Shown here: one piece after another, positions 37,985 through 60,513 of the stretch
How the letters are laid out: each line of letters opens with the position of its first letter
Position numbering within the stretch: position 1 is the stretch's first letter
Assembly (NCBI RefSeq): GCF_964204865.1
Contig: NC_135258.1
Location: 8,981,001-9,045,000, forward strand
Reading direction: 5' to 3'
Length of the DNA: 64,000 nt
From: Styela clava
Lineage: Eukaryota; Chordata; Ascidiacea; Stolidobranchia; Styelidae
Position numbers and translations under genes: made by a program
Notes under the pieces: model-generated
The model's database searches: none
Told to the model about the DNA's origin: nothing
The model's input: the letters and a program-made list of their open reading frames with translations, nothing else

Positions 37985-39410
37985 TCAATCACTGGCATCG
38001 TTGTCAGGCAACTCAAAACGTTTTGGGTAAACTGTAAAAATAACATTTAATGTCAAAACACTTTAACACAGCAATCAATAAAAAGCAACTCAATTTAATG
38101 TGAAAAACTATATTTAAATATGAATATTTAACATTAATATTATATTTTTTTGATAGGAACATTGTAACTTTTTTTATTCGAAGCAAATTACCATACTTTT
38201 CTATGATTTGAACCTTTAAATTTAAACGGCCCAGTCAATTGAATACAGTCAACAACAACGACCATCTATAAGTTTTGTCATGCGATTGCGTTTTATACTA
38301 AATTAATGTAATATTTTCAAAAAATAATGTTTATTTCAACAATTCAAACTCGAATATGGAACAAGAACACGGTACAAATTGCTTTTAGTCAATTGATAGT
38401 TGATAAGATAATATGTATAATGTACATCTTACTTTCCTTGAGTTCTTCTAGTTGACGAAGTAGATTCTCACCCAATTGGTCATCATCAGTGAACAATTCC
38501 TGCGAAGGGAAACATTTTTAAATATCTTACAGATTGAGAGTTATCAAATACTCATTTGTAACATTAAAAAAACTTTACCTGTAATGGTTTTTCATCCCAA
38601 CTCCATCTAATTGCACGACGGATGACTCTAATAAAGAACATTTTGTCAATATAATGAGGAATTATGGGCTGGTTGTTTACGATCAAACGGTTTTTATTTT
38701 TTATGCTCATCGTGATGATGAAAAAATGGACCAATCGATTTCACAACATAACATCAAAACGAAAGAAATCGCTGGAGCGATATAACTTTTAAGCAATTTA
38801 TCTCTTATTTGAAACAAATTTTGCTGTTACAAGGCTACTCAACTATTTTTACCGAAGATCCACATGCACAACTTTAAAATTATATTTCGGCATCCTTAAA
38901 CACGCACTTCCTCGGCCGGCTAATGATTATTAGCTAATCAAAATTGTTTAATATGGCGTTATAGTTCTTTTCATATATATATTCACAACTATATAAAAGT
39001 GATTTTATAGAAGAAAACCTCAAAAGTGGGGCTAATGATCCGTAATAAAGAATTAGGTGCGGTCCGAATCAAATACTCAAAAGATCCTGAGTTTAGTAGC
39101 CCTGTTATATAATACGTGAAAACACTCTTTTTATTATCATCAAGTATATTTATCGCAGAATAGCATCTTCTTTTACAATTGAATGTTGTGAAGCAGGTAA
39201 ATTGGAAAAAAATGGTCAAATTCAATATAATTGTCTGGACAATATATTCAAATGAGGAATTTTTTTAATTTATATCTAAATTTCAGCATATAAAAAAACA
39301 TACGCTTTTTTTGCAATTTTTCCCCTCCTTCTTCTTCTACCCCATTCCAAAGAATCCATAGCCATTAAAAGAACAACTAAAAAAATGACCAGCACTTTCG
39401 ATCGAAACAT
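37985..39410 (-). CDS. Gene A: Arg-rich AMP-like precursor, four exons, 89 aa
   Basis: Likely secreted cationic host-defence peptide precursor. Exons in coding order: 39304-39410, 38579-38627, 38433-38499 and 37985-38031. Intron phases are 2, 0 and 1, all GT-AG. The start ATG opens a signal peptide (MFRSKVLVIFLVVLLMAMDS, then LEW). Residues 24-46 are strongly cationic with no acidic residue: GRRRRRGKIAKKA, then VIRRAIRWSW, with 8 Arg, 3 Lys and 2 Trp. An acidic tail follows (LFTDDDQLGENLLRQLEEL) and the protein ends PDNDASD. This signal, cation, anion order is that of tunicate AMP precursors. The tandem sister is gene B, with the same exon plan. A polyadenylation AATAAA lies at 37826-37831 on the minus strand. 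No sequence match to a named peptide was recognised. Antimicrobial activity is inference. Confidence 0.85.
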
Positions 39411-39498
39411 GTTTCTGAATTTCGCTATTGACAAGATGTGAAACCGCGATATGTAGGCGTTGTTGAAAGTACTAGTTCGAAAATGAGCTTTTCAGTCC

Positions 39499-39504
39499 TT
39501 TATA
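39499..39504 (-). promoter_or_regulatory. TATA box of gene A
   Basis: TATAAA on the minus strand about 90 bp before the ATG. Gene B has a weaker TTTTAAAA at the equivalent place (about 44519-44526). Confidence 0.55.
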
Positions 39505-41308
39505 AACCCTCCTTTCATCAACATCATAATGATTAATCACTTTCTTCATTAATGATTTTAATCTATCACTTTTTCTACATGTTTTATGAATAGTATATAT
39601 GCAACAATTTAGTGCAAGTGTTCAAGCGATGTTCAATCGCCTCAATCAACTTCCTAGACAAATTAATAACAATGAAGGGGAATATTACACAATATAGTGT
39701 AGCTGACAATCTTTAGTGCATTTGGAAGCTGACTCACTTTTGTATTTGAAATCGACGGAAATAACCCGATCAAAGAAACACCAGTTTTTGAATTTAGTGA
39801 CTATCTGTTTCATCATATAGGTTGTGGTCTTGATTAAAATACCAATAATATTTAATTGTTGGTTTGAAACGTTCGTTAAAAAACTCCAATCATGCATGTA
39901 TGCCGTTAGGACTCGAGAAAGTTAGTAAATTCATAAGTATATCTTGAATATGATCACTGGGGCACCACTCCATACTGTTTAATGGCATTGCTTAAAAATT
40001 CTTCAAAAAAATCAATATTTTGTACAAATTTGTTCTGTTCGATCTCTTACGAAAATCTTGCTTTTGTATTATTACCTAATGGATTTGTTGCTGAGGTAAA
40101 TGCGGATTCACAAATCACATTAAATTTTATTTTAACCAGTTTTTAACCAAAGGAAGAAATTATTTCTAAGCATTTTGAGCAAAAATTGTACAAAAAAAAT
40201 CATCGTATTTTTACTTTACTAACAGGTAAAATGAATATGTGGAACCCAACCCAAACGATAAACAATTTGGTCTTGAGAAAAGGCAATAAATAAGCAAAAA
40301 ATGTCTTTTCTGAATTATTTTCCAAAGACATGTGCTTTATTCTAAGTCTAACGACGAGATTTATGCAAGACTATAAGATTCAGTTGTATTTTACACAACT
40401 GAAAAGTCGATATTGCATAGTTTAGTATTTAATTGAAGTATAGTCGACACAATATCTTATTTGTGATTGTAACTGTTGGAACAATTATTCGAATCACCAC
40501 TATCTAAAATTTGGAAACAATAAAGTTCTAAACACTAATGTTGTCATAAAAAAAACATCCAAATTTCTGTGGATGCTCCACATTTTATCTACTTTAAGCA
40601 AAGGTATGTAACCCAATATTAATCTAGAACAAAAAGGGGCAGGAGGCCATAAACTCTATTCAATCGCCAACGGTGTGAACGTAACAATTATTTGTTGTTG
40701 CATTCAATAAAACCGGGTACCTACAGTTGCTTCCTCACATAACCATCACAACCTCCCAGGTTTTGTTTGGCTTGGAGGTCGTGCCTGATATACAGAGTTT
40801 ATGGCACAAGAGACATTTATCGTCCAGGAAATATTAGTGATGATAACCGACAACGTTCGCAAAATTTATTGGACGTAAATCAGTCCAAATTTTTTTAATC
40901 TCATTTTTTCGTGCAATATTCTGTAAGCTTGTATGTTGTATATCTATGTATGCTCAAATCGATGATGGCGTAATTTATAATTTTCGTAACAATTATTCAA
41001 TGTAATTCAATAATATTTAATCTTTTTTGCTGTTATTTTTTATAGTAGATAGTTCGCTATGACGTCAGATGCGTTTGTAGTTGAAATTGAATCCATCGAA
41101 ATTATAGAAAAATAAGGGAACAAAGTTCAAAGACATGGTCACGTGAGTACAATGACTACTACGTGAGCACTAGCCTGAACTAAAAACACGTGATGACAAA
41201 ATCTACTTAAAAATAGAAAATGTTGGGTGAAATATCAATCTCCACAGGCACTGGAAAAAAATTGAAGGTTATAAAAAATTGCATTCTAGGAACTTTTCCT
41301 ATTTTCAG

Positions 41309-41483
41309 GTCCCGCAATTGTAAAATTCATTGGCCCATCAATTGCAGAGAGCAGCCATTTTACAACAACGACAGAATCAACTATTTTGCAAAACAATGCG
41401 CGTTGTGTGGAAAAACGATCAATGGTGGTTCACACTGTCACCACAACATTCCTAAAATAACAAAACTTTTTCCAATGCTATGA
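41309..41483 (+). CDS. Cys-rich candidate terminal exon
   Basis: An acceptor TTCCTATTTTCAG precedes a frame (phase 2 entry) of 57 codons plus TGA. The peptide reads SRNCKIHWPINCREQPFYNN, then DRINYFAKQCALCGKTINGG, then SHCHHNIPKITKLFPML. Five Cys and the C-x-x-C step recall small secreted Cys-rich (for example ShK-like) modules, but the spacing does not fit ShK cleanly. Upstream in-frame codons exist, but a signal-peptide exon was not found. It is the only plus-strand coding candidate inside the AMP cluster. Family uncertain. Confidence 0.35.
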
Positions 41484-43382
41484 AAAATGACACTATAAAA
41501 CATTAAATATATATATAAAGTGGTTTTTAATAAGTTTATAGTGTTTGTATTTGACTGTTGTATATTTCATTACATAAGACATTTTTATGTTTATGTGGCC
41601 ATCTCCGTGGGTATCAGCTCCGGATAGCGGAAATCCAAATTTATGAGTGGGAGAGATGGTCTGACGCAGAGATTTCAACGTGGGAGTCGCGACATTAATC
41701 ACATTTACTTTTATTTTCGCCAGTTATCAAGATCCAAAAACATGTTCGCGAAGGGAACGACAGAAAATAAAATGTTCTTAGTGGTGTACAGTATATTTGA
41801 AGTGGTATTTGCGTTTTGTATGTTCACCAAATTGAACATCGCTCTGAATTCCCCGAAATCAGTGAAACTGATACTGGCGGCTTCATGTCAACCTTTGATT
41901 GTGAAATATTGTGAATTCTGACATTTGAGACATAATTTAAATCTCTATTGCAGTTTTTAAATTAATAAACAGGCCAAATTTTCTTCATGTATAAGATTAG
42001 TAATAGAGTTATTTGCATATATAGAACTTTGCTTTGTCACAAAATCACCGCATTCTTTGGAAAATTCCTATCTTTCGATATGTACTGCTATGTATGAGTT
42101 AGTTTTGTCGTCCAAACTTTGCTTCAAAATATGAAATTAACTTCATTTTTCTACGATTCTTCATCTCGCGCGCTTTTCTAACGTCAACATTAGTTGTGTA
42201 TATTGTGAAAAATAATATAAAAAAGTGGTACGATAAAGCCCCCTAAAATTGCATTTAATTTTATTCTATTGACTTTGTATTGTATAGAACGGGTAACAAG
42301 GCTCAGGGGCGCAGCCATGACGCGGGGTTGGGGGTTGCCATTTCACTTATTAAAAAAGCTGACTTTTTCCGCTGATATTGATTTTTTCCGTATTTCTCAA
42401 TCTAATGATAATACTGTTCTAACCCAACTAAATTATCGATGTCCTCGTCGCGCAACTCGTACATTTCTCGACAGATAGGGGAAAAAGATTGTGAGAATTT
42501 TTAGAAACTGATATTGAGATGTTCACTAAAATGAAATAATAACGTCTCACTTCGATGAGCGATTAAAACAAGACAAGACCCGAAGAAGCACTTTATTACC
42601 ACCTCCCTATTCAGTCTTTCAAAAAACTGGCAGCGCCATTGATCCGACCCTCCCTTATCTGATCATTTATGAGATGCCCTAGCTAAGAGCTTTTTCAAAA
42701 AAAAAATTAAAAATGAGTCTGAATTTTGTATTTAATTGTAAAAAAATTTCCAACTTTCTCCAAGAGCCGGGGGCGCGCAAAATGCAATATCGGGCCGTAG
42801 TTTGTCCATCCCTTGTCTGGAGTATAGCATTAAATTATTGTATTTCTATGGTCCTTGCCACGGGAAATTTTATTGACTGCGGTCATCATAATTATTAAGT
42901 TAAGTATTGCAGTTTGATCATTTATCTGGGACAGGTTGTGGTTTTTGTGACAATTTCTCAGCATCTAAATTTTGCAAAGAACTTGTAGTCTCCAAATCAA
43001 CTAAATACTACTACAGGGTGGGACAAATGTGGGTTAACAGTCAGTGGATTTATTGGATTTATGTTATTTTATTATTTATGTTATGTTATTTATTGGATTT
43101 ATTAGGAATAAATGTCATCCTACTTTTGGCCCATTTTGTATATTCTGAACGGTTTTCATTTGTTTTACTGTATTATTGTGGCAGTCAGCTCAAAGCTCAG
43201 CATCCTATTGCTTCATCCATATTATCTAAAATACTCGTTATTCTCAGATAAAACATTTATTTGTCTATTTTTATTTATGTCGACTTGATATGATGACTAT
43301 AAAATTATATATGATTACATGTGTAAAACTTGCATGTATATAGATGAGTAGGGTGAGGATATTTTGCTTTCATCAATCATCT
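41484..43382. other. Intergenic between genes A and B
   Basis: Contains only weak ORFs. CAGGGGCGCAGCCATGA near 42303 has the look of a hAT-type terminus, but no partner end was found. No gene recognised. Confidence 0.4.
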
Positions 43383-45100
43383 TTATTTAGTCACATCGCT
43401 GCGCGGTGATCCAGATAGGTTCATCTCAGCTGTAAAAATAATTTTACTGCGATTTAAAACCAGGAGAAAAATCTCAGTATTAACCATAGTAAAATATTGT
43501 TAGAACCGCTTATTTGCATCATGATTATTTACACATAATGATTGAATTTCTCCATTTACTGAAAGCTTTTATTAAAAAAATTGTGGTGGGGGGAGTAAGA
43601 AAAACCTGAATCATAAAAATATAATATTTTGTATATTACTTTCTCCAAGCAGTTCCAAGTCCCGCAGTGTGTCTTCATCTAATTGATCACTGATCTTAGC
43701 TGAAGTTTTCTGCAAGCATCATATATTAAAACAACACTTTATCTCAAAAATATTGTCTTTGGAGCATACCAAAATGATTCATATTAATTAGTAAATTACT
43801 TTTTCTTCAGATTGTTGAGTATCCCACAACCATAGCCGCCTCCACCAGCCTCGTCGACGAGCGCGATGACGTATTCTATGAAAGAAAAATATATGTTAGA
43901 CTGTTAGAGCATCGCAAAACGAGTGCGTGGATATCATTAAGTCTTTAGTAGGGCAAAATAGAATAACAACCTGCATAACAACTACTTTTGATTTACCTGC
44001 ATAAATGCGTGTTTATATAACCAAGTCGAGAACACCAAATTAGTCAAATTACATGTCAATATCATGTAAAGATCTCTAGATAGTGATCATTTAATAGCTG
44101 GTGTCATAAATTGCAGCCCAGTTGTAATATGATGTTGCATAATATTTTCCTTTGTTCATGGTCATTTAGCAAGTTTGACTTGTATCCTACTGTGTTTATA
44201 ACTGCATTATTTTTTCAAAATACTCTCTATGGTCTCGTTAGCAAATAAACACGATGAAATAAAGCAAATGGACCAGCGAGCAATCAACAATTTTAACATA
44301 TATAAAGAACGCATACATTTTTTTCGCGACATTGTGCCTTCTTCTCCTTCTTCTTCTCCTTCTCCATTCCAAAGAATCCATAACCATTAAAATAACCAAT
44401 AAAAGAATAATTGACGTTTTCAGTCGAAACATGCTACCAGGTTTTACACACGGTTACACAATATCTGGGCGTTGTGAACAGGACTGATTTTAAAATGAGC
44501 TCAATTTCCACCCGTCACGCTTTTTAAAAGCATATTCCATCTATACCAATGGGTTAACGACACATTCTTTATACCATTTGTAATTTTGTTACATCTATAG
44601 AATGAAACAATAAAGTGCAAGTGTTTAGGTGGTTTAATCAATTTCCTGATCTATTAAATGAGAATACATGATCTAATATATTAAACAATATATTGTAAGC
44701 TAACACGTTTTTAAAACGCACTTGCACAAACACTCTATTCTTCATAATTGTTTTCACCTTAAACACCAGCCTGGAACAATAAGAGACATCAGTCATAACC
44801 TTTATTCAATTGTCAACAATTAGATATTAAGCATCGTGTACCCAAAATTGCTTCCTCGTCTGACCCCCATAACTTCCCTGGTTTTGTTTTGTTTGAAGGT
44901 CGCGACTATTGCACAGAGTTTATGCCATGGGTTGAATTTATCGTGCAGCAAATTTCAGTAATGAGGTTAATATTAGGTTTCGTAAAATTAGCTGGATGTA
45001 AATTTGTTCAATTTTTTATGCAGTATTCTATTGTATATGCTCAGAATTATGGGATGGCAATTTACAATTTTTATACAAGTTGTTAAAAGTGAACTGCGTT
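43380..45100 (-). repeat. Tandem duplication unit with gene B
   Basis: Partner of 37980-41000. It is shorter mainly because introns and spacer are smaller. Small ORFs on the plus strand upstream of B (44.9-45.2 kb) are not conserved in the partner. Confidence 0.7.
43383..44432 (-). CDS. Gene B: poly-Arg / Trp-rich AMP-like precursor, four exons, 102 aa
   Basis: Exons in coding order: 44317-44432, 43800-43875, 43640-43709 and 43383-43429; phases 2, 0 and 1 as in A and E. The signal peptide (MFRLKTSIILLLVILMVMDS, then LEW) matches A closely. Directly after it come nine consecutive Arg coded only by AGA/AGG, then HNVAKKI, then IRHRARRRGWWRRLWLW. Residues 24-56 thus hold 16 Arg, 2 Lys, 2 His and 4 Trp with no acidic residue. 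The rest is milder: DTQQSEEK, then KISDQLDEDTLRDLELLGE, ending SDVTK. AATAAA overlaps the TAA stop. Such an Arg/Trp core is expected to bind membranes or nucleic acid. The role as an AMP is inferred from precursor layout and neighbours. Confidence 0.85.
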
Positions 45101-45612
45101 TGATGTTTTACATTTATTATTGTTTTTGTTTAGTATGCGTTGGTACCTTTGGCATAGCATCGGTTTTTGAATGTATGGCGGGTTAGTCTGACGCAATGTC
45201 ACGTGGTAGAAAAACGACTGAAGGGTAAGGGGAAATGTAGAACCCATAGATCTCGAATTGAATGAAAAAAGGGATTATTACCTTCTAGAGCCCTTTTTTC
45301 ATGTACTGAAAATTTGAAATCTATTGGATGAGAAGAGAAGAATTGTCCAACCACAGAATTCTTGAAAAAATAATAATATTACTAAAATGTTTAAATTGTG
45401 TAGTATTTTGATATTCTAGCTATTTATTATTCGATGAAAATAATGAGATGTCGGCTACAATATCGTAAAATTGGGTGTTACGTGATTCTGGATTTAAAGT
45501 TGAGTTTCAGTCGCATTTATATACTAACTCATCTGAATTTATTTATTTTTTTAATTTGGGAATTAGGGTTGGATCTTACTCATATAGGAAAAATACGATC
45601 TACAGTCTACGA

Positions 45613-46054
45613 CAGGGGTCGGCAACCTACGGCCGACTATAATCCGGCACTATAATCCGGCCCGCGACGCTTCACTGAATTATAGTAACGAAACATCCGT
45701 TTTGACGAATATATTCTTTAGACTAAATTATATTATAACCTAACAATTATATAATTCACAATTACTTGTTCAATGAGCATATAATTTAATGATAATTAAG
45801 CAAATGGCAACAAAACGCAGAAAAGTTGATGCTAAGTGCAAAGGGTTCGATGGCGCTGAAAATATTCAAATGGGATTTTATGAGATGCACTGAGGAAATA
45901 ATTCTATATTCTATGCGAGAGATGTTTCACTGCTTGATTTTTATTATAAAAAGTACCATCTGTTCGGTTTCATCTTTCTAAAAATATGTGCGGCCCGCCA
46001 ATGACTTGCAACCCTTATTTTGGCACGCGAGCGACAAAAGGTTGCCGACCCCTA
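45613..46054. mobile_element. hAT-type MITE, 442 bp
   Basis: Starts CAGGGGTCGGCAACCTACGG and ends GGTTGCCGACCCCTA (last base changed from G), with a perfect 8 bp target duplication GTCTACGA (45605-45612 and 46055-46062). Same family as the nested copy at 30786-31196. Non-coding. Confidence 0.88.
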
Positions 46055-46062
46055 GTCTACGA

Positions 46063-47476
46063 CCTACGTAATCGTTGATATTTAGGCTAAATGTTTGAAA
46101 CATCTTTTCAGCCCTTGGGACCAATAGCAATACCGGACATGTGTTACACTATATAAAACAGCCCTTGTTCAAATTTAACAATAGAAGAAAATAGGTCACT
46201 TCTTGTTGTTTCATAATCTTAAGGTTATGATTTTTAAAAGACAATGATGATTATGACTAGCATGTTTATGACCAGAGCCAAACAGGGAACATTTATGGCA
46301 AATATAAATACACTTAGCCGAAATTATCTTTCTATATATGAACAAGGATTGAACCAGACAATTTTGAAATAGCACTATTGTATTTTGGGAGTTATGAGTC
46401 ACTTTGTGAAAACTGAATATTTGCAATAAAGCGACAGAATATGCATTTTGAGAAAATTCTATAATAAAATAAACAATTATTCCTACTTCAGCAGAAAACT
46501 CCAACAAATGCCTCAAATGAGTCTTTTCTATGTCATATATTATATCATTAGTAAATTGTTTTTTGATACGATGGATACACGTTCGAAACAGATCATTAAT
46601 AAATTTTAATTGAGGATCCAATATACGTTAGATGCCATCGATGTACAATTATCTCGGATTGAAAACCTTACTAGTTATTTGATTAACATGTGCCTGTCAT
46701 CTAACTCTGGCATATTGTAGGGAAAGGGAGCGCATCATTTGCATACCCTTCATACTTCTACAAAGTAGTCTTGTAAAAAGGGCGCCACTGCAATTCCGTG
46801 CGACTAACATTTTTACGACTCTCTTATCATTCCATACGGCCTACACTAACTTAACCTTCTGTACAGAAACGTGGACAGAATTATTATAAATTCAAAAATA
46901 TTATATTTCGTAGGGTTGGGAAAGTAAAGATGCATTTTTTTTCAACCAGTTTTATTTTGTATTATCACCATGACTGGTTTCAGTGTATTTGTACCGGATC
47001 TATTTTCTGCTTTTCAGGAACATTAAAACAACGTGGAAAACGATGAAACCCTGTTTGATATCATTTCCAGTCACGGTATGACAGCGGAAAGATACCAGTC
47101 CTCCCAAATAATAGTTAACTCCTTACATATCGTTAGATATCAGCGGCTGCTTGTATAGGGAATTGTACCAAGCAAAAAGCGTGAATAAGTGTGGTATAAA
47201 AATTGCTGACTATGCTTGTTTATAAGGACTTCAAAGAATTGTTTTAAAGATTCATTTTATTTTCACCGAATATTACAAAATGAAAATAATAGAGGTCGTT
47301 GTCATACTAAGTAATTTTAGTGTCATAACCATAATTGAAATGTATTGAAAATTTTGTTCAGACATTTAAGCTGAAACACTATTGAAATTGTGATTTTCCC
47401 ATGTTTTACTGTGTTGAACATAATTTATCATTTCAAATTGTGGTTATGAAACATGGGTGTTTGTTGTGATTTCGTT
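46063..47476. other. Intergenic between B and C
   Basis: A minus-strand 136-codon ORF (46211-46621) has no ATG-bounded domain and is judged chance. Nothing else recognised. Confidence 0.4.
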
Positions 47477-48045
47477 TTATTCATAAATGTCTTCAAATAT
47501 TTTTTGCAATTTTTCGGCCATGGTGTCTTGGTATGCCAACTCATCACTGTCGTCGTCGAACGTTGTCAAAATTTCGTCCAAACTGTCTTTTGGAGCAGGA
47601 TTTTGCTGCATCCACTTTCTTCTCCATTTTCTAGTAAAAAAGGAAATAGTGATTAAAATAGTGATTGAAAATTATATACAAAACTAGAATGATATATAAA
47701 ACTAGCTACGTCAAAAGGAAAGTTTGTACACTAATAATAAAAAATTCGTGTACAGCAACTTAAGTTGTTACTTCGTTGAAATTGATTCATTTTTACTCAA
47801 ATATTCAAAAAACGTATTCGGTCAGAGACCGAAGACTTATCGACCGAAAGTTAGGGGATCCCCCAAAACAGCGCTCTTACTTCATAGTGACACCTTGTGT
47901 CCCATCACCAATTAATTAATAACTCGCCAATTATACGACATAATTCATCCAAAATCATTAGGCTTCTGGTCCGACATCTGATGAATGCACATGCAAAATC
48001 TGGAGCAGATTCAATCTCGCTTTCGTGAGATATCGCGTGCATTTA

Positions 48046-48076
<31 letters not shown>

Positions 48077-48283
48077 AATACCTATCAGACAAATACCTAT
48101 CAACATACTTACCGATTAAAATCGATATCAGTAATAATTGTGTTTCACTTACAGGTGGTTATACCAGAAACGTTTTAGTTTCTGTAGCCGAATTTCTTTA
48201 GTAGTAGGTTCAGAAGTAGCCTCAGCGAAGCTGATCAATACGACTGCCAACAACAACACCAACACGATTGCACGCATCTCCAT
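47477..48283 (-). CDS. Gene C: Trp/Arg-rich AMP-like precursor, two coding exons, 94 aa
   Basis: Coding exons 48153-48283 and 47477-47630, with a phase 2 GTAAGT/TAG intron. The upstream of two in-frame ATGs was chosen (MEMRAIVLVLLLAVVLISFA, then EA); this Met-x-Met opening is also typical of styelin precursors. The mature part starts TSEPTTKEIR, then the cationic core LQKLKRFWYNHLKWRRKW (three Trp, eight basic residues between 32 and 49). A long acidic tail follows, including DSLDEILTTFDDDSDEL and KIFEDIYE. The intron cuts the core after FWYNH. The plan and the KRFW motif match gene F. A 5' UTR intron (48290-48409) and a TATA box precede it. AATAAA overlaps the stop. AMP function inferred. 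Confidence 0.85.
48046..48085. repeat. CAGA microsatellite in the intron of gene C
   Basis: About nine CAGA-type units, followed by a short tandem CAAATACCTATCA duplication. Confidence 0.85.
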
Positions 48284-48289
48284 ACTTAT

Positions 48290-49429: not shown

Positions 49430-50983
49430 TCGGACTCACTATAATGTCAAGCTCGGAGATTTATTTTTTTCAATTTTCCTCAGTGTGGTGCTTTGAGAAA
49501 ATAGTTTTAAAAAGTATTCATTTTCTGGTTGTAATCTCCATTTTTTTTACTTTTCATAAATTCTACATTATCTCGTACTTTCATGGAAGAAAGCACGTTA
49601 TATAAGAGCCATACTAAAATAATATTTTATCTATTTTAAAATTACCTATCAAAATAAAACTATTACGAACGAACATTTGAAGGATACCGGACGAAAAGGG
49701 TCATCATAAAATACAGACACGTAGCATTTGACTACAGAAGCTTTCAATATTAGTAGGTAAAACCATGCAGGCAAAGTAAAACTATTCACAAATTTAAGTA
49801 AGAAATTTTGATAATTATGGTAGGCGATCCTCAATTAATATAATAACATGTATATTATACGAATGCATTGGTTTCCCAGTAGTTTTTTTTTCATTTTTTA
49901 TTGTCCGTGTGATCAACTGCGATTTTACATAAAAGTTGGGTCCATATTATCTGCAAGAATTCCTTTTCGCACAAACTAGTACACTTTTATTTAGGAAACA
50001 ATTGACAATTTGTAGACATAATTATATGTATCGTAGAACCGTTTTGTACAATTTTTATTCTTGCATAAAAATAAATTATTTTCCATCTCTCGATCTGGAA
50101 AGACACTGAAGCAACACACAATCGTCTTTCATCTTGTGCAAAACTTCATAAAAAGAAGCACTAATTACGTGAAATATTGGTTTCATTAGCAACTATTATT
50201 ATCGCTCTTGTTTTAGGATGAAATACTCTTTATTTATCCTTTATTTCACTATTTTACAGATAGCAATATAAATTTGCCTTTCGAGATGGACGGTGGAAAT
50301 TCTGCCTATATTAAGCCTATTTTTTTTTTAAAATGGCAAATATTTTATTTTTCATTTCTTATATATTCTGATTATTGAACTGATACATTGTATTGAACTT
50401 TATCAACAAATAATTATTTTCAATTATAGGCGTTCACATCATTGACGAATTCCTGCATACGTTTAAAGATCACGTCATCAGCATCTTTGTATTTTGAATC
50501 TGTGGTTTCGTGGTCTAACTCAGCCACTATATTGTCCAAAACATCTCCGGATGAAAATTGCCTGTTTATCTTCCATCTTCTACTAGAAAAATAAAGTTCA
50601 TAGGTATACGACGTCATCTGGTATTTGTCGTCACAAAAAATGCTGTTTTTTAAAAATACTAGGAAACACTAAACTTTGAATCAAACTAACATTTGAAGTT
50701 CTATGATTTACAATTTTCAACATCACTTTTGGAGTAAAGTGTGGTTCAATATTATTATTTGAATACTTATCCCCAGGTCTGATTTTTCATTCAATCTATT
50801 ATTTACAAAGAATAGTTCTCAGTCTTTTCTATCTGGTTAACTTTCTTTAATCATTATCATGCCACGATTGTCGTGAATCAAACAATTTTTTTTCATTAAA
50901 CGAAACTTACAAAAACTTAATAAACCATGACTTTTTTTGGTCTAAAATTCTTTGGATTCGGAATTGTCGCCTGCCAATTACTT
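49430..50983 (-). repeat. Segmental duplication, D copy
   Basis: Same-orientation copy of about 59100-60360, sharing TTTTCTGGTTGTAATCTCC, ACGTACTTTCATGG-like and TTATATAAGAGCC stretches, the whole exon 2, and intron 1 up to TCGCCTGC(C/A)AATTAC. Homology stops near 50981, about 30 bp before the position matching the exon 1 donor in F. Confidence 0.85.
50420..50579 (-). pseudogene. Gene D: orphan second exon of an F-type AMP-like gene
   Basis: This 160 nt exon is the same length as exon 2 of gene F and has an intact frame, acceptor CTAGTAG and TGA stop. It codes the end of the cationic core (RWKINRQFS) and the acidic tail (SGDVLDNIVAELDHETTDSK ... EFVNDVNAYN), differing from F at only a few residues. 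No F-like exon 1 exists upstream, because the duplication ended inside intron 1. The nearest upstream exon candidate (51488-51718) ends in phase 0, but this exon needs phase 2, so they do not join in frame. It is best read as a truncated recent copy, unless an unseen exon feeds it. Confidence 0.75.
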
Positions 50984-51487
50984 TTTAATGAATGAACAAT
51001 TTGAAACCGATGTTGGTACTTGAAAAACAACCCATTGACTCCAATAAAACTTTACAAAATAAAAGTTGAATACACAAGATTTAATTATATATTTGTAAAT
51101 ACGATTCGACGTGAAAGTGACATAGTCCCAATCATAAAACCAGACTGACCCTGGATAAATTGAAACTTTCTATTGCATTAAACAATGAACAATGTTGTTA
51201 AAATGTCAAATTCAATTTTGAAACCATGGCATATACTGGCCTATTAATGCCCTGAACTAGTTTCGTTGATTCGGTGTATCTTTATGTCATGGTAGTAAGG
51301 CGGGGGGCATACACCTAACTTATCGTAAGCTAAACAGAATTTAAAGAAAACAGATCAGAACGTAGTGAATGATGAAAACAACAGGATGCTATCCCAGCAC
51401 AATTTAAAAAGCTTTGCCCCAGCTTTACATCAATATGACTAGAACAGTCCGTAAACATGCATCAATTTGCAAGTGAGTAATACATAC

Positions 51488-51718
51488 CTGAATCCAGTTT
51501 TCTAATAGCTGACATTTCTCCAGCCATGATTCTTCAGGTAGGGAATACCCTTTTCTATGCAATGCAGATGGTGGCTTACCAGGGGTTGCAACATGCAAGT
51601 TTTCATCGTTTCTGTCGCTTTCCCTCACAACTGCTAGTATGTCCTGAGTATCAAAATCCGCCATGGCGATAGTAAACAATAACATGGACAACACATAAAC
51701 AACAGAAAACCGCAGTGC
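51488..51718 (-). CDS. Candidate exon of an unrecognised secreted protein
   Basis: A 231 nt open block with acceptor-like TTATTAG and a good donor CAG|GTATGT, phase 0 at both ends. It reads a hydrophobic start (RFSVVYVLSMLLFTIAMA), then DFDTQDILAVVRESDRNDE, then HVATPGKPPSALHRKGY and SLPEESWLEKCQLLENWIQ. The start resembles a signal peptide with cleavage after AMA. The first in-frame ATG lies inside it, so an upstream exon or the internal ATG would be needed. A second frame just upstream (ATG CAG CAG CTG...) is also hydrophobic, so a small frameshift is possible. Neighbouring exons were not found. Family not recognised. Confidence 0.4.
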
Positions 51719-53064
51719 CTAATAACAGCTGCTGCATGAAATCTAAATGCATTTTATAGTCATTCAATTCATTAAGATGTATCACAATTTTATTAAAACA
51801 AATCCACGTAAAGAAAGCCAACTATAAAATATGTGAAAAACCTGATAAAAATGCAATCGTAGACTCTATCAAACAAAATCATTTCAAAATTAGTAAATGT
51901 TCGATTTACCTAAAAATGTACATAAAATGTAATTGTTATTCTTTACTTGTAATAAGCGTTTTTTATTTGTTTACGATAATTGTTTAAAACCGTATTAGGC
52001 ACTTTAACACGGGATTTTGAGAGGTAAAAAACGCGAGTTTGTAAATTTCACAGCTTTCTACATTTCGTATTTTTCGCATTCGATTGTCAAAAATGTCATT
52101 GTCATTTCAATTATCTCCATTGTTCACAGTATATAAGGGTCGAATTACAAAACCACGATTTAGCTTGCTTGCCAAACAGTCAATACTACTGGCTACCTCT
52201 CGGTCGCTTCGCTAGCTTTCACGACCGACAATCTTTGATCAATCTACGACTGACCTGCAAACTTTTCCAGTCTTTTGTCCATTCAGTGTCATTGACGTTT
52301 ACCAAACAATCTGTACTCGATGCCCTAATGACAATTGACCTACATTAGCATGCGGGCAAGATAGCATGTCAATTGCAATGACATAGAACTCTCCTAATCT
52401 GTTTGCACAAACTCACTCATATATCTTTTATCTCTAACAACTAAAACACGACTTTAACTATACTGGACCAATTGCTTTGAAATTCTCAATGATGAAAGAT
52501 TGTATTTTTTGCTAGAAGTCTATTACTTTTATTTATTTCCAAAATTTCTGGGCTCCTGAATTTGTTTGTTTGGGTGCCATTACGTTATCTAAATTAAAAA
52601 GTGTGCACATTATAGCGGTTGAAATCGTGAAATGAAAACTGCGGCACCAGTAGAGTCTCTCGTGACAAATTGCAAACCTGTACTACCTCGTTTTGACTTT
52701 CGTTTCGATATATTTAAGCATCCCTCTCTTGTTGAACAGTAGCATGATTTTTTGGCGTATTTAGCCAATTATACGTTTATATTGATAGATCGCAAAAAAA
52801 TAAATATATACCACAATTAAGGGACTGAATCAAGCAAGTTTATATAAATTTATATTCCTTTTATATTAGCAAATTTTGAGCAATTTTATTTTCAAGATTT
52901 TTTTGTGTGATATAAAAAGTTTCACACTCGTTCACTCCCAAACTCGCGTCACTCTCACTGTGAAAGTCCTTTTTCCTGAAACGCCATCTGCTAGCGTCTT
53001 CTGTTTCTTTGCTTCAATGTCTGAACCAGTAAAGGGGTAATTTTCAAATTGAATCACTTTATTA
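51719..53064. other. Intergenic
   Basis: A plus-strand TATATAAGG lies near 52131-52139, but no coding sequence follows it. Nothing else recognised. Confidence 0.4.
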
Positions 53065-53329
53065 ACAGCGCTGACGTGGAAATAATGTTGGATTTTCTGC
53101 AACGCCACACATCACGTTAATCGATTCTCTAATAAAGTATAATTCAATGATGGCAAAACTGATTAAAATCAATTCTATCTAATTGCCACGATTGTACAAC
53201 GACGACATTTTGCTCACTCAAGGCTTCCTCTATTTTTCTTTTTCTTCCAACAATACCCAGATATGAATATGTTTCATAAGAACTTATACTCAAGACAGTT
53301 AATTTGACGTATCGCCACACCATCGCTGT
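53065..53329 (+). pseudogene. Inverted partial copy of the 3' end of gene E
   Basis: About 265 bp, complementary to 56646-56910. It starts inside the last coding exon of E and keeps the end of the acidic tail in frame (SADVEIMLDFLQRHTSR, then TAA) plus the 3' flank out to ATCGCCACACCATCGCTG. No upstream part of the gene is present, so it is a fragment made by an inverted duplication. Confidence 0.85.
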
Positions 53330-54165
53330 TCTACCATAAATTTTGTCTCAATGGCGCCGCGACAGGTATCTGAATAAATGTGTATTAATGCGAGTATTGG
53401 AGTACTCATACCTCCTTCAACTTGACATACGTGTGTGTCAGGGATCCTATATTTTACCATCTTTCCTAATGTGATATGTTTTTTATAATTAATTTTAATT
53501 ATAAATGTCATTTATTATTATTACTAATTTCGCAAACAAGAATATGAATTGTGACTACAAGACTGCAAAATAAATCAGCATTCTTCGAGACAAAAATTTC
53601 GATTGAAATAACAGATATTTTACACTAAAATAACTGCCATTTTATCAATTTGTATTGACATATAGATTGTCATTCGAATTGTCACAGTTGTAAAAATGAC
53701 ACCAGAAAAGTTCTTTTTTTCAAAGAATGCATAGGCTGCACTTGTTAACAGGATCCATCGTGAACTGGAATAAAAGTCTGTTTCATTCTACATCATTCAT
53801 CATTGATATAACAATGTGAGTTCCGTCCAAACTTGTGTAACGTTATTACAGCAGTAGCTTGAGCGTGGTATTACTAAATTTTCATAAATACCCTGATTCT
53901 AGTGAACGGTCGGAAGCACTGAGTCAATGTTATCAATTTTTAATCGCATCCCATTATGTTGGAAGTTTTATAATGACAAAAACATGGCAGTGAGCATTCT
54001 CTAAAAAGGGTATTGATCATTTCAATATAGGAATTATAATGAAGTTTGAGCGTTCGTAGCAAATATTTAAAAAAAAAGTGGCGGTGCATTAACGTATCTA
54101 TTGATTATGTTTAACTCGAATTTCTAGCAATTTCAAAATTTTTTGTCGTTTTTTCTGTACTTGTT
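53330..54165. other. Spacer, nothing recognised
   Basis: AT-rich. No gene or repeat seen between the inverted E fragment and the leader of the lectin-like pseudogene. Confidence 0.4.
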
Positions 54166-55418
54166 TTTACTGTCAAATTATTTCCCAACCTATTATTACT
54201 GTACGAAACAGTTAGAATTAAAGTCAATGTTTGACGACCAGGCCACGGAGACGATGAAATTCTACATGATAATCAGCATTGTTGGATTTGCTTGTGGCCT
54301 ATTAATGTCAATACAAGCTAAGGTATTATAGTAACTATGAAAACACTGTCTTTCCGTTTTACATGAAATCATTATTATTATAGACAGACTCCATTGTATT
54401 TGAACACAGTTTTTTTTTTGTTTTTGGCCAATTAATAGCAGTACAGGACAAGGTGTTCTTGTAAATGTATCAATATAATTATTTTATAAACAGATGGTAT
54501 TTGAAAATGTAATATTGCATTTATATTATCGGCGACTATACAAAATCAATCAATTAGATCAAGAGTCTTCAAACTTATTTGACCGCGAGCCAGGTATGAC
54601 TCAAACTGGGTTTAAACGGGTCGGACAAATAATTTTGTCAATGCGATACAAAAAGTTGGGAAATGCATTCAATTTATTCAACAATATGAATTCTACATTT
54701 CTGAAGTCTTGAATATTAAATTCTATATCGCAGAATATAGAAAAAGACAGCTGATCCTGAGGTTTGCTGTTAGCAAAAGAATTGCATGTAGGCAGTACAA
54801 AAGTTAACATGACTTGTAAAATGCGTTCGACGTTCATTTTAGCACGAGAATACCGATGAGGTCTAGCCTTCATTGATGTTACCGCACGGTACCTATTTAA
54901 CAACGTTATATCAGGTAGTGCTCAACTTTTGGGAACTATGGTAAAGATCTACAAAACTTCAAAAAATAGCTTACTTATGCCTTTTAACACCGTCTTAGCA
55001 TAACTTAAGTAGTAATAACTAGCATTTTAACAAAAGTTTTATATCAAAAGTTTACACGAAATATACTAATAACAAAATATGTATCTTGTCGAGTTCTGAT
55101 GATTGCTCCACGGCTTCATTTTAGATCCTGGAAAGTCAGAAAATATTTGCGACTTTAACATTGACCAATTTACCTTAATTTTGAGTAATAATTCGATTTT
55201 TTTTCATTGGTGCAATATTAATTTATACTTGAGAAATTACAAAATATGATTCTAGTATTATTTTACTTAATGTGAGTTGTATATTTAACTATTTTTAATG
55301 ACGATCAATGCTTTGTTATGTGTTATGTCGGAGTGGTAATAGGAATATCAATTGCACAAGCATTTATTCTTTATCGAAATTGGCACAAAGTAGACTTTGG
55401 TGCTTTATGCCAGTAAAA
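54166..55418 (+). pseudogene. Decayed copy of the lectin-like gene
   Basis: The leader (AATTAAAGTCAATGTTTGACGACCAGG region) and the signal-peptide exon (54254-54317, MKFYMIISIVGFACGLLMSI) match the gene at 30050. The exon 1 donor is changed from GGTAAGG to GCTAAGG. Intron 1 sequence is recognisable at 54494-54570 without the hAT-type element. Exons 2-4 are missing. Pieces of intron 4 recur at 55030-55320, and the end of exon 5 is kept at 55328-55418 (VVIGISIAQAF ... FGALCQ, stop). It cannot make the full domain. Confidence 0.82.
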
Positions 55419-55454
55419 TTGTTATATCTTTGCAAAAACACCACATACTGACCA

Positions 55455-55950
55455 GAGATGTATCTATGTATCGGTATCGGCAATATCGGCCCAATTTTTG
55501 GTAATAGTCTATTGGAGATTACTCTATCTTTAATTAAGTTCTGAAAAATTGTAAATTCATTGAAGAGCTATTTTTTACAATAAAAACATTTTTGCAAGGC
55601 AAAGTAAAGCGAACTATAGGTGTAAATCTAATTCTAATCCGATACCCGCTACAGTAATAGTTCTAAACCTGAATGACAACAATTCGATGACCATTTTCAT
55701 TGCGATTTACTTTATTTCTTATACGAAGTTGAATATATATATTTTGTATATTATTTTTGAAAATGCTTTAGTTGTAAGCAATTTTTCTTATTTGTTGTTT
55801 GCTTTCTTTGTAATTTTTACAGGCCTACATTTCTTCAACGTTGCCCTTGATGTAAATTTCCTCTCGATATGCTTCTCTTGTATTTATTGTATTTTACATT
55901 TCAGAAAAATTGCTTTTACTTTAAATTTTTTTGATAAATCATCTTTTTCA
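55455..55950 (+). repeat. Duplicated block R2, copy 2
   Basis: Partner of 36494-37000. It begins about 36 bp after the stop of the lectin-like pseudogene with CCAGAGATGTATC and a GTATCGGTATCGG motif. Confidence 0.75.
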
Positions 55951-56030
55951 AAACAGTCAATAGTTGTAACATATGTAGTTACTTTTCAAACTCAACCAGT
56001 AACAGTGGGTTATAGATGTGGCGCTACTTG

Positions 56031-56271
56031 AAGACCTCATAAGGTCTCTCTGACTCCTGTCATTACCAGTAATAATATCGGTATCAATTTCTGTGCAATC
56101 ATTATTTGCGATGACAAATAAAATATTGCCTGACTGAATTATATGTATACTTCGTGTAAAAAGCTGACGATGATGGTCCGCGTATGGCCACTCTCCAACC
56201 ACAAACACAAGTGAAATAATATTTATATCATGAAAATGAATCGTTTCTGCTATACCGTTTCTATACCTCAA
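56031..56271 (-). other. Possible NTF2-like domain fragment
   Basis: An open frame containing SLVFVVGEWPYADHHRQLFT followed by RSIHIIQSGNILFVIANNDC resembles, by eye, the last two strands of the NTF2-like fold of nuclear export factors (FTR..., then ...VND). There is no clear start or splice context, and the frame continues into an unrelated Ser-rich tail. It may be a gene fossil or chance. Confidence 0.2.
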
Positions 56272-56645
56272 ACTACTTGATGTTGTTATTCTTATATATA
56301 CAGTCGTTGTATTTTAATGACGCGAAAAGCATTCTACCCCAGTATTTATATATATTTTTGTCATGCACGCCCAATTTATTGCGTTTTATCCGTACTGCCT
56401 GCGGTAGTATGTTTTACTTCTCACGGCACTATCAAAATGAAATTTATGGTATTTTTCGTTTTCATTTGAAGTTTTTGTATGATATTGTTTCAGTCTGTAA
56501 GAGAGCATAGCGCCTATAAGAGCCAATTTCAACATTTTTTCGAGGCCGCAGTTTGCATACCTACACACCCCTGTGTTCTGCAATAATAATAAGGAAACTG
56601 ATATTCTACGTTTACGATATATTTGCATGAGAGATGACCCTAGTA

Positions 56646-56910
56646 CAGCGATGGTGTGGCGATACGTCAAATTAACTGTCTTGAGTATAAGTTCTTATGA
56701 AACATATTCTTATCTGGGTATTGATGGGAAAATAAAGAAAATTATAGGAAGCCTTGAATGAGCAAAATGTCGTCGTTGCATAATCGTGGCAATTGGATAG
56801 AATTGATTTCAATCAGTTTTGCCATCACTGAATCATATTTTATTGAAGAATCGATTAATTTGATGTGTGACGTTGCAGAGAATCCAACATTATTTCTACG
56901 TCAGCGCTGT
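56646..56910 (-). repeat. Inverted repeat arm, 3' end of gene E and flank
   Basis: Pairs with 53065-53329. The arms face each other across 3.3 kb holding the lectin-like pseudogene and R2 copy 2. Confidence 0.85.
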
Positions 56911-58249
56911 CTTCATCTTGTGTATTGAATTCCATCTTTTGCACATGTTGAAGTTCACCTGCTTATGAAAAAAACGTATACGCGCTAAATTTGACGCATT
57001 CTCCATCGATTAAGTCTACTGTAAATACTGTGTTTTAATTTAAAATATATTCTTTTACTGGCTCAGACTTTGAATCACAGAAACACAAGACAATAGCAGG
57101 AGTTCTATTACACCGTATACTAGAGAGAATTATTAAGATATTCAATTTTCGATTTCTTTTGGAATTTGTTTCTCTTCGGAAAATATTGCGCATTTTGGGT
57201 GTCCAATTACCAAATTTCCGACCTACTCAACCGACGTTGTCAAAAGTGCTATTCAGTACTAGAGTACTTTAAAATTTGATTATTGTATCTCAATTTTCAT
57301 GTTTACAGTTTTCTATCATTGCCATTCTAAATAAATCTAATATTATGACTGCAATGTGTTTCATTACCGTCAGACAAGTTGACAATTTCCTCAACTGCTT
57401 GCATGAAATCTGCAACTGTGTCATCGCTCAGCTCTTCTGATAAATCATTTTCCATTTTGGACATTGCCTTTCTAAGTTCTGCTTCGTCCTAAAAATTTTG
57501 CATTTGTATATTGAACTGAATAGCTTAGAGTTGAGGAAAAATTTAACCATTATAACATATAGTTATGAATGAGGGTATATATTTGATCATTTTGTTGTTT
57601 TCCCTTGCACAGCTACAGTGGATAATAAGCAGAAATAGATTTTGGATACAGAAATGTTTTTGAGTGGGACCTTACCATATTTCTTAGCGTTTTGATTCCA
57701 TCCCAGAATCCAGTCGCCACCGCTGCTCCTTTAACTGCGTATCTGACAATGCTGGAAAACACCAGTAAAAAAATTTTCACAAAAAAACAAGTAGTTGATA
57801 TTTAGGTGATTGTGTCAAAATTAATAATTTGTTTGTCTTCAATGAAGGGAAATTTAGTTGCGGCAGAGATGTAATTGATGCTTATTTGAAACATCTTGAT
57901 AGCTTGATAAGTTTTGAATAGGTAAATTCGATTTTGCCAATTTTCATTTGTAATAAATCAAATCTAACACTCATTCATGATAAACAATATTGCCCAGATT
58001 TGACGGATAGAGAAGATTGAGATATTAAAGATGCAAACTTCTTAGATAGTTTTAGAAATGTAAATTCAAATGATTCAAAATAAATTCAGACAAATAGTTC
58101 TGTATAGTGTGTCTTTCATCTACTTACGGATATTTTTTCCACACACGATGTACGGTTCTGACTGTTTTTTTCACCCAGCCCCAGCCTTGGGTGTCTTGTA
58201 TCAGTAACGCAGCCAATAAAGCAACAAGTATCACCGCTTTCGTATTCAT
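56855..58249 (-). CDS. Gene E: styelin-like AMP precursor, four exons, 140 aa
   Basis: Exons in coding order: 58128-58249, 57676-57751, 57368-57488 and 56855-56958; intron phases 2, 0 and 1 with clean GT-AG sites. The signal peptide (MNTKAVILVALLAALLIQDT, then Q) is followed by a cationic amphipathic core starting GWGWVKKTVRTVHRVWKKYP and continuing IVRYAVKGAAVATGFW; residues 22-57 have eight Lys/Arg and no acidic residue. The Gly-Trp start and spaced aromatic and basic residues match the styelin / pleurocidin-like AMPs of Styela blood cells. An acidic tail follows (ENDLSEELSDDTVADFMQAV, then EEIVNLSD), as in styelin precursors, but an extra exon 4 (ELQHVQKMEFNTQDEDSADV and on) makes the precursor clearly longer than the roughly 80 aa styelin precursors. 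TATA box and AATAAA (56839-56844) are present. Strongest AMP call in the window. Confidence 0.88.
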
Positions 58250-58304
58250 CTTGTATAATATGTCAGATTTTGAATTTTAGATATGTGATTGGAAAGAAAT
58301 GGCA

Positions 58305-58312
58305 TATTTATA
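58305..58312 (-). promoter_or_regulatory. TATA box of gene E
   Basis: TATAAATA on the minus strand, about 56 bp before the ATG. It leaves a very short 5' UTR and no room for a leader intron. Confidence 0.65.
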
Positions 58313-58339
58313 GGTTTTGGATCCCACGCTGTGTGATAT

Positions 58340-59068
58340 TTTAATAGTTTCCTACTCATTGCCTATCAAATAAATGAGTTGGACCTTCCCACTGCTATTT
58401 TTCTCTGCGTTGCTGCGTGCTAGTGTTAATACATATGTACTGACTGTAAAAACATTGTACCAAAATTGAAAACGACTATATCAAGCGTGACAACAGCACA
58501 GCTTCATAACTAGATTGACGTTAATGTTGGAGGCAAAATAAAATAAGTGCAACTGTACCACTAATTTTGTAAGCAACATATTTGAAGGTCACTTGTCACT
58601 TCAAGATTTATTCGATACCTAACATTTAGATTTAGACCACCGAAAAACAAATTGAGTAGTGCGTGCCCTATAGAAATTATTTCCAGCCTATTTTCGAGGT
58701 TTTCATCTAGTGGTATGAAATATCTGAATAAAAATGCTACCATGTGCTTCTACTTTTAACCCCTTTCTTAATTCTGTACTCGACCCCGTTAAGAAATGGC
58801 ACCGGAGTCTCACAACGTATCAGATCCGGGTCACTTCCGTAAACAGGGATCTTGTCCTCTCCACAAATCCTTTCATAATTGTTTTAACACGACCAAATCA
58901 GGACCATCCGGGGCACCATTTCCTCCTATCTTTTTGACTGCCTACAATCTGCAGGAGAAAAAAAAATGACCTGATTTCCTATGATACGGTATTATTATGT
59001 ATTTAGGGTATTAGAGTCCCTCATGTTTATATATGCTGACATCAAAAATCATATAGATTCAATTTTAC
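58340..59068. repeat. Inverted repeat arm left of gene F
   Basis: About 730 bp complementary, with small indels, to 62925-63690. Landmarks: ACATATGTACTGACTGT, ACAGCTTCATAA, GTGCCCTATAGAAATTATTT, TCACTTCCGTAAACAGG, ATCAAAAATCATATAGATTC. It lies immediately upstream of gene E and downstream of gene F. Confidence 0.88.
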
Positions 59069-59099
59069 AAGGAGAATTTTACAAATCTCAATCACTATT

Positions 59100-60360
59100 A
59101 TCTGAAACTCGGGAATTATTCTTTTCAATTTCTGAGTGAGTTATCGTGATCTTGCTTCAAGAAAAAGGTTTTAAAAAATATTTATTTTCTGGTTGTAATC
59201 TCCATTTTTTCACATTTTATAAATTCTACATTATCACGTACTTTCATGGGACAAAGCAGGTTATATAAGAGCCCTACTAAAATATTATTTTACCTATTTC
59301 AAAATTACCTATATTATCAATATAAAATTATTACGTACAAACATTTGAAGGATTCCGGACGAAAATGGTCATCATAAAATACAGACACATAGCATTTGAC
59401 TATAGAGGCTTTTGATATTAGTGACTATTCACAACTTTAAATAAAAAAATTGTAATAACAATGGTAGGCGATGCTTAATATAATATCATGCATATTATAC
59501 GAATGCATGTTTTGCTAAGTAGTTTTTTCATTCTTTTCCCATGTGATCAACTGCGTTTCTTCATATAAGTTGGGTCTATATTATCTGCAAAAAACTCCTT
59601 TCACACAAACTTGTACAGAGGACACACGACACACACGATTCTTTCATCTTAAGCAAACTTTTATAACAAGAAGCACTGATTACGTGAAGTATTAGTTTTA
59701 TTAGCAACTATTATTATCTCCTTCATTTCATTATTTTACAGATATCAATATAAATTTGCTTCTCAATATGGATGGTGAAAATTCTGCCATTATGAAACCT
59801 ATTTTTGTTTAAAAATGACAAATATTTTGTTTTTCATTTATTCTGATTAATAAAAATCATGTATTGTATTGCAACTTTTCCAAGATATTATTTTCAATTA
59901 TAGGCGTTCACATCATCGACGAACTCTTGCATACGTTTAAAGATCACGTCATCTGCATCTCTGTATTTTGAATCTGTGGTTTCGTGGTCTAACTCAGCCA
60001 CTATATTGTCCAAAACATCTCCGGATGAAGATTGCTTGTTTCTCTTCCATCTCCTACTAGAAAAATAAAGTTCATAGATATATGACGACATTTGGGATTT
60101 GTCTCCACATAAAATATTATTTTCTAGAAATACTACGAAACACAAAACTTCGAATCACACCAGCATTTGAAGTTCTATGTTTAACAATTTTCAACATCAT
60201 CATCGGCTTTCCTAACTTTCTTTAATTATCATCATGCCACGATTGTGGTGAATCAAACATTATTTTTTTTTTAAACGAAACTTACGAAAATTTAATGAAC
60301 CATGACTTTTATTTTGGTCTAAAATTCCATTGGCTTGGAACTATCGCCTGCAAATTACTC
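59100..60360 (-). repeat. Segmental duplication, F copy
   Basis: Partner of 49430-50983; see gene D. This copy runs on into an intact exon 1, so it is closer to the ancestral state. Confidence 0.85.
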
Positions 60361-60513
60361 ATAATCACAATTATAAATCTCGAATACTTACAACTGCCAG
60401 AAACGTTTCCACTTTTCCCTGCGCAATTTCTTTTTCTCGGGGTCAATTTTTGAATCAATGATTTGAATGAGAGCAATTGCTAATAACAACAACGCAATCG
60501 TTCCACGAAACAT
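59894..60513 (-). CDS. Gene F: Trp/Lys/Arg-rich AMP-like precursor, two coding exons, 93 aa
   Basis: Coding exons 60392-60513 and 59894-60053, with a phase 2 GTAAGT intron. The signal peptide (MFRGTIALLLLAIALIQIID, then S) starts MFR like genes A and B. The cationic core is KKKLRREKWKRFWQLRWKRN, then K, with 12 basic residues, one Glu and three Trp between 27 and 47. The acidic tail follows (DVLDNIVAELDHETTD ... EFVDDVNAYN). Gene C shares the KRFW motif, the intron position within it and the precursor length. An acceptor-like ATATTCTAG just upstream of the ATG suggests a 5' UTR intron. AATAAA lies about 55 nt after the stop (near 59835). Activity is inferred. Confidence 0.88.

Follow-up and report, generated by a model that had tools for sequence, protein, structure and literature searches.

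Minus-strand genes for cationic peptide precursors in Styela clava form one cluster of a probable styelin-type family

We analysed a 64,000-nucleotide stretch of the ascidian Styela clava (contig NC_135258.1, referred to here as C10, positions 8981001-9045000; "the window"), in which five genes, A, B, C, E and F, are predicted to encode small secreted precursors with a cationic core. The likely explanation, in our judgement, is that these genes make up one cluster of a large host-defence peptide family that descended from a styelin-type ancestral gene. Their gene plan belongs to a genome-wide family and not to this cluster alone. A first-pass annotation of the window had proposed one ancestral gene for all five; with the sequence links that emerged from searches of the genome (376.6 Mb, 379 contigs), such an origin has good support for A, B and E and moderate support for C and F.

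All five genes lie on the minus strand, and our splice models reproduce exactly the span given by the first-pass annotation, from the start codon of F at 60513 to the stop codon of A ending at 37985. The layout it described is found throughout, with a signal peptide (judged by eye and by hydrophobicity), a cationic core and an acidic tail. With the border between core and tail set by hand, the cores of A, B, C, E and F carry charges of +11, +18, +8, +8 and +11, and the tails -9, -6, -11, -9 and -8, respectively. The first intron is in phase 2 in 5/5 genes and cuts the core at codons 36 (A), 39 (B), 44 (C), 41 (E) and 41 (F), as had been claimed for residues of about 36-44, following 107, 116, 131, 122 and 122 nt of coding sequence in the same order. 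GT donors and AG acceptors flank the introns modelled in these genes. Genes A (89 residues) and B (102 residues) consist of four exons with phases 2, 0 and 1, and genes C and F (94 residues each) of two exons with a phase-2 junction; the acceptor of F is ambiguous between two sites 3 nt apart, which makes the junction residue either Phe or Leu. Gene E shows phases 2 and 0 followed by a phase-1 donor, and the earlier claim of phases 0 and 1 common to A, B and E thus stands in full for A and B and in part for E, for which no fourth exon was found in the region specified below. If its third intron is left unspliced, exon 3 of E stays open for another 13 codons before a stop at 57327, giving 119 residues. 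Genes A and B form a tandem pair with 48% identity, and their DNA matches over exon 1 (72%) and over an upstream piece; C and F are related at 31% identity.

The styelin genes of the same genome provide the reference for this plan. The Pfam Styelin profile (PF17562) is the only curated protein profile that spans exon junctions in any part of the family. It gave nine genomic matches at an E-value of 10, eight of them over its cut-off and all within C10:16.312-16.342 Mb; among 14 control genomes, two gave matches and none was over the cut-off. These matches correspond to three genes, STY1-3, of which STY1 scores 138.8 bits across the whole profile (curated cut-off 27 bits). Each has four coding exons with phases 2, 0 and 0, and the first intron falls within the mature peptide. 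A query with clavanin A, its sequence letters taken from PMC4904370, matched two places on contig C1 (83 and 87%), and the presence of both styelins and clavanins marks the genome as that of a Styela-type ascidian. In the one of these two genes that was read, introns of phases 2 and 1 lie in the signal and pro parts, and the mature clavanin is encoded by a single exon. Because this plan differs, a phase-2 intron in the core is no general rule for genes of antimicrobial peptides (AMPs).

Members of the family are distributed widely. First-exon matches, counted as places with a search row starting at residue 1-4 of a precursor, number 34 at eight places on contigs C1, C3, C4, C10 and C18 (E-values up to 1, so that the weakest rows may be chance): six in or beside the window, the three styelins, the distant E relatives E3 (contig C3) and E4 (contig C1), ten at C3:16.14-16.22 Mb, three at C3:7.75-7.77 Mb, seven on C18 and three on C4. 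One row at C1:11068434 (25% over residues 1-108, E-value 0.66), rows for other exons and repeats of the same gene were dropped before this count. We read 19 of the 34 as genes, five in the window and 14 outside it, and know the remaining 15 from search rows. Weak matches of A, B and E3 (E-values 0.05-0.96) led to G1, G2 and J on C3 and H on C4. K and K2 (C18), M (C3) and H3 (C4) came from small extra stretches fetched after the gene plan was known; their donors all fit phases 2-0-1, and an exon-4 acceptor is seen in M and H3. At an E-value of 1, query A recovered A and B plus G2, and query C recovered C and F alone; query F, at 0.001, recovered F itself and D, a copy of its second exon.

In 19/19 of the genes read, the first intron is in phase 2 and falls within the cationic core. 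A phase-0 intron follows in 17 (C and F have no second intron), and 14 have a phase-1 donor at intron 3, where the three styelins have phase 0 and C and F have no intron. Genes with the plan 2-0-1 occur on C1, C3, C4, C10 and C18. An acceptor and an open exon 4 after the phase-1 donor were found in seven genes (A, B, E3, G1, H, M and H3), the fourth exon of E3, with phases 2-0-1, being clear; J offers two possible acceptors and was left out of this count. Exon 3 measures 121 nt in 10/17 genes (E, E2, E3, E4, G1, G2, H, H3, K2 and M), compared with 118 nt in J, 124 nt in K, 67 nt in A, 70 nt in B and 57 nt in the styelins.

Several details of individual members were recorded along the way. Intron 3 of H has a GC donor (AAG/GCGAGT, position 2307 of its stretch), and exon 4 of G2 (about 2319-2440 of its stretch) runs out of frame near its end relative to G1, such that G2 may be a decaying copy. 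The region C3:16.142-16.237 Mb holds a dense array of Arg-tract members, with ten first exons in ~76 kb and other exon matches continuing to 16.2366 Mb; three of its genes were read. Seven weak first-exon matches lie at C18:11.399-11.444 Mb (E-values 0.013-0.76); the two that were read, K and K2, both fitted; in their long cores a Cys comes after the Arg tract, and their third exons are highly acidic.

The link between the Arg-tract peptides and the styelins depends on genes outside the window. Direct profile comparison of A/B with the E family (7.2%) and with the styelins (2.3%) was not significant, and bridging genes were therefore needed. In G1, G2, J, M, K and K2 an Arg tract directly follows the signal, as in A and B, and the third exons of G1, G2 and M are E-like. 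In M, an Arg tract is combined with a helix that can be aligned to that of the styelins (KATRKVGKFYKRNR with KAAKSVGKFYYKHK; pairwise BLASTP E-value 7e-5, 23% identity over 107 columns), with the intron of M two codons further on. By hhalign, a bridge profile built from M, G1, G2, J and H matched the E family (98.5%, 2.5e-15), the styelins (96.8%, 2.6e-10) and A/B (95.1%, 3.3e-8, over 32 columns of signal and Arg tract), and the E family matched the styelins (96.8%, 2.5e-10) over 76 columns that begin at the start codon and reach into the tail. C/F matched the styelins at 75% (2.5e-5) over the signal and first core half, the bridges at 18% (1.3e-3), A/B at 28% and the E family at 9%. As a control, columns were shuffled within the signal and within the rest, 60 times per comparison. 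The observed score was reached by 0/60 shuffles in 9/10 comparisons and by 3/60 for A/B against the styelins; bridge scores stood at 93.0 against a shuffle maximum of 16.1 for the E family, 59.7 against 17.9 for the styelins and 50.4 against 22.6 for A/B.

A number of observations weigh against this account. Genes A-F are known from DNA sequence alone, and their splice sites were picked by hand with the hypothesis known beforehand; that the models go beyond chance follows from the lower divergence of exons than introns between E and its near-copy E2 and from the 14 outside genes that share the phase-2 core intron. No credible exon 4 of E was seen by eye in 57100-57300, the region inspected. 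The connection of A/B to the bridges consists of 32 low-complexity columns rich in Leu and Arg, together with the gene plan, and C/F are linked to the styelins only, among the profiles compared. The shuffle control is weak, in that four comparisons at 7-28% probability also beat all 60 shuffles, and for this reason we place weight on the size of the score. Clavanin reached 0.3-27% against the five profiles, and its 27% with the styelins, which comes from the signal alone, is about equal to the 28% of C/F with A/B and above the 18% of C/F with the bridges. In a Styelin profile scan of A, B, C, E, F, E2-E4, G1, H, J, K and M (G2, H3 and K2 lay outside it), E (10.4-10.6 bits), E2 (16.3) and M (8.2) fell below the 27-bit cut-off, E3, E4, G1, H, J and K gave no match up to an E-value of 10, and A, B, C and F gave none up to 1. 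Lastly, the helical moment of the core was matched by 4/1000 shuffles for E, 55 for C, 407 for B, 883 for A and 888 for F, and by 145/1000 for STY1 and 12/1000 for STY3; helical amphipathicity in A, B and F is thus not above shuffles, nor clearly so in the true styelin STY1. At such shuffle-level moments, A, B and F would owe their action to Arg richness and not to an amphipathic helix. Other Pfam matches of the family proteins were below cut-offs and made no sense, the best of them (CTD1, 1.4e-4, for G1) falling on the acidic part, and a comparison of the E profile with solved structures returned nothing useful, with three matches at E-values of 0.13-0.77.

These observations bear on two alternatives to common descent. 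The cluster could consist of several unrelated secreted-peptide families with converged plans, in which the phase-2 first introns and the acidic tails had separate origins and E alone is related to the styelins. The lack of a significant direct match for A/B and the moderate match of C/F to the styelins and to nothing else would agree with this, as would signal peptides that are all Leu-rich and of similar length. However, unlinked bridging genes combine both peptide types with phases 2-0-1 and mostly a 121-nt exon 3, their profile matches to E, the styelins and A/B lie far above shuffles, and the clavanin gene read in the same genome follows another plan, which together make wholesale convergence improbable. 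A narrower alternative, that C, F and D form a two-exon family of their own and share the cluster by chance with styelin-type A, B and E, deserves more credence, yet we still consider it doubtful. C and F have no second intron and no equivalent of exons 3 and 4, their matches to the bridges and the E family are no better than that of clavanin to the styelins, and no further genome copies were found with F at an E-value of 0.001 or C at 1. On the other hand, their cores are cut in the same phase 2 at codons 41-44, and their match to the styelins across the signal and core half scores 30.9, where the highest of 60 shuffles reached 17.3.

It is also conceivable, but in our estimation unlikely, that the peptides have another secreted role, as a tunic component, in signalling or in storage. 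The Arg-rich cores of A, B and F, with shuffle-level amphipathicity, would fit such a function. Against it stand the homology of E to the styelins, the pairing of a cationic core with an acidic tail, and the Ciona peptides KH.C7.94 and KH.C1.640, which have Arg runs and a similar layout and, according to PMC7387483, were active when tested. We retain host defence as the probable role of A-F, by homology.

Under common descent from a styelin-type gene, the ancestral plan would have comprised a signal peptide and first core half, a phase-2 intron, the second core half, a phase-0 intron, an acidic tail, a phase-1 intron and the tail end. A and B would retain this plan in full and E at least its first two introns, the styelins would keep phases 2-0 with a shortened tail, and C and F are probably a two-exon version. 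By homology with styelins and botryllin, blood cells may make the precursor, remove its signal and store it in granules, where the acidic tail would neutralise the cationic core. An Asp marks the turn of charge in exon 2 (by eye), and it follows Trp in A, B, E, E2, E3, G1 and G2, Gly in STY1-3, E4, H, H3, J, K and K2, and Tyr in M. Cleavage would probably occur before this Asp (W/D in A, B and E), as PMC7387483 states for styelins, cut before D, and clavanins, cut before DD; the peptide would thus be freed at the exon-2 Asp. The freed cationic peptide could then damage microbial membranes. Transcription, cell type, cleavage site and activity of A-F are all predicted here by analogy with these relatives.

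Duplicated pieces lie within and beside the cluster. The first-pass annotation skipped the letter D, which we apply to an open-frame copy of the second exon of F. Between D and F, 9/163 exon sites differ compared with 90/563 aligned flank sites (Fisher p = 4e-4), from which we conclude that either selection or gene conversion has preserved exon 2 of D. The duplication pairs 49436-50982 with 59092-60359 in three BLAST pieces, and its boundary at 50982/60359 lies within intron 1 of F, ~33 nt short of exon 1. A first exon for D was not found, with poor phase-2 candidates as the only ones in 50583-57300 and scans also made over the whole window. An open frame just upstream of D, 51428-51718 (-), begins with a hydrophobic stretch, may carry a phase-0 donor and has no Pfam match up to an E-value of 1, but it is not a fitting candidate for the missing exon. 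E2 is an inverted near-copy of E that lies outside the window, ~6 kb past F and on the opposite strand; the description of a same-strand cluster accordingly applies within the window and not beyond it. Exons 1 and 3 of E and E2 differ at 10/284 sites, against 56/549 in introns (Fisher p = 6e-4), and these exons, like exon 2 of F and D, are better conserved than the DNA that flanks them. An inverted repeat of 79% identity pairs 58383-59092 with 62905-63621, a further inverted copy of the upstream flank of E, additional to that next to E2.

Table 1. Coding segments modelled in the window (coordinates within the 64,000-nucleotide stretch).
Segment	Content	Positions	Strand	Remark
A exon 1	signal peptide; core half with Arg tract	39304..39410	-	ends phase 2
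A exon 2	second core half ending ...RWSW/DEK	38579..38627	-	ends phase 0
A exon 3	acidic tail	38433..38499	-	ends phase 1
A exon 4	tail end and stop	37985..38031	-	
B exon 1	signal peptide and Arg tract	44317..44432	-	phase 2
B exon 2	Arg/Trp core half ending ...LWLW/DTQ	43800..43875	-	phase 0
B exon 3	acidic tail	43640..43709	-	phase 1
B exon 4	exon 4 and stop	43383..43429	-	
C exon 1	signal peptide and first core half	48153..48283	-	phase 2
C exon 2	Trp/Arg core half, acidic tail, stop	47477..47630	-	
D	F exon 2 copy with open frame	50420..50582	-	differs from F exon 2 at 9/163 sites
E exon 1	signal peptide; styelin-like core, first half	58128..58249	-	phase 2
E exon 2	second core half (...GFW/DG)	57676..57751	-	phase 0
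E exon 3	acidic tail, 121 nt	57368..57488	-	phase-1 donor
F exon 1	signal peptide and first core half	60392..60513	-	phase 2
F exon 2	Trp/Arg core half, acidic tail, stop	59894..60056	-	

An intron inside the active peptide had been taken to let the two core halves evolve or be exchanged separately. The first part of this claim finds partial agreement, in two of the three gene pairs compared and in D. Between E and E2, the exon-1 part of the core differs at 1/56 sites and exon 2 at 13/67 plus a 9 nt gap, such that exon 2 has changed faster than the exon-1 core (p = 0.003) and than the introns (p = 0.037). Between STY2 and STY3 the signal differs at 0/66 sites, the exon-1 core at 13/45, exon 2 at 6/54 and introns 2 and 3 at 66/1069, so that here it is the exon-1 core half that is faster (p = 0.04 against exon 2, 5e-6 against introns); in both pairs the counts are small and the p-values uncorrected for several tests. 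G1 and G2 keep 12/17 and 25/30 residues in the two halves, with no clear contrast. Intron 1 was left out for STY2/STY3 and G1/G2, as length differences of 200-350 nt make the alignments unreliable. That the faster half is a different one in E/E2 and STY2/STY3 fits separate evolution of the halves. Classical positive selection on the fast half was considered and is not shown, the proportions of nonsynonymous (pN) and synonymous (pS) differences being 0.20-0.28 and 0.21-0.45 in E/E2 exon 2 (depending on gap placing) and 0.25 and 0.46 in the STY2/STY3 exon-1 core; with synonymous differences raised too, selection and local conversion are not distinguishable. Exchange of halves between genes, the second part of the claim, was not shown. 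A more speculative idea, to which we give little credence, is that the intron acts as a seam at which core halves diverge and recombine separately, with new peptides arising by re-pairing of exons 1 and 2; D might then serve as an alternative last exon for the F signal exon across gene E, or as the donor half of a new pair.

Elsewhere in the window, a Wnt gene occupies 6681-11159 (+): the open reading frame at 10704-11159 matches the Pfam wnt profile (1.8e-57), and that at 6681-6980 (+), upstream, has by eye the look of a Wnt exon. A further open reading frame at 32724-33038 (+) shows a weak C-type lectin match (E-value 0.0095, below the Pfam cut-off).

Among known systems, the closest are the styelins of Styela clava itself (PF17562), which share with A, B, C, E and F the signal, cationic core and acidic tail and the phase-2 intron inside the mature peptide, and with A, B and E also the phase-0 second intron; C and F share the first intron only. 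They differ in a third intron of phase 0, compared with phase 1 in A and B, in a short tail that is longer in A, B and E, and at the predicted cleavage site, where styelins read ...LG/D and E reads ...FW/D, the Asp being preceded by Trp in A, B and E but by Gly, an amide donor, in STY1-3. The cores of A and B, moreover, are Arg tracts. Botryllin of Botryllus schlosseri is, according to PMC9966394, a styelin-like peptide made by morula cells that kills bacteria and yeast; its precursor likewise has a signal and a propeptide, whereas a single gene is described. According to PMC7387483, Ciona peptides with a signal, a cationic helix and an anionic region kill bacteria. These linear cationic AMPs (Ci-MAM/Ci-PAP and relatives) follow the same order of signal, cationic region and anionic helical region, a likeness of layout, and that text describes alike signals with different cores, some with Arg runs. 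Clavanins, from the same genome, also have a signal, core and acidic tail, but their mature peptide lies in one exon (in the one gene read), in contrast to the intron-split cores of A, B, C, E and F, and they give no clear profile match to the family. No account of the gene plan, or of Arg-tract relatives in Styela, was found in the open-access library that was searched. AMP cores change so fast that descent is rarely visible from sequence alone. Here, gene structure and intermediates from the same genome suggest that Arg-tract peptides and styelins join in one family, which would provide candidate new peptides and a test bed for the evolution of an intron-split core.

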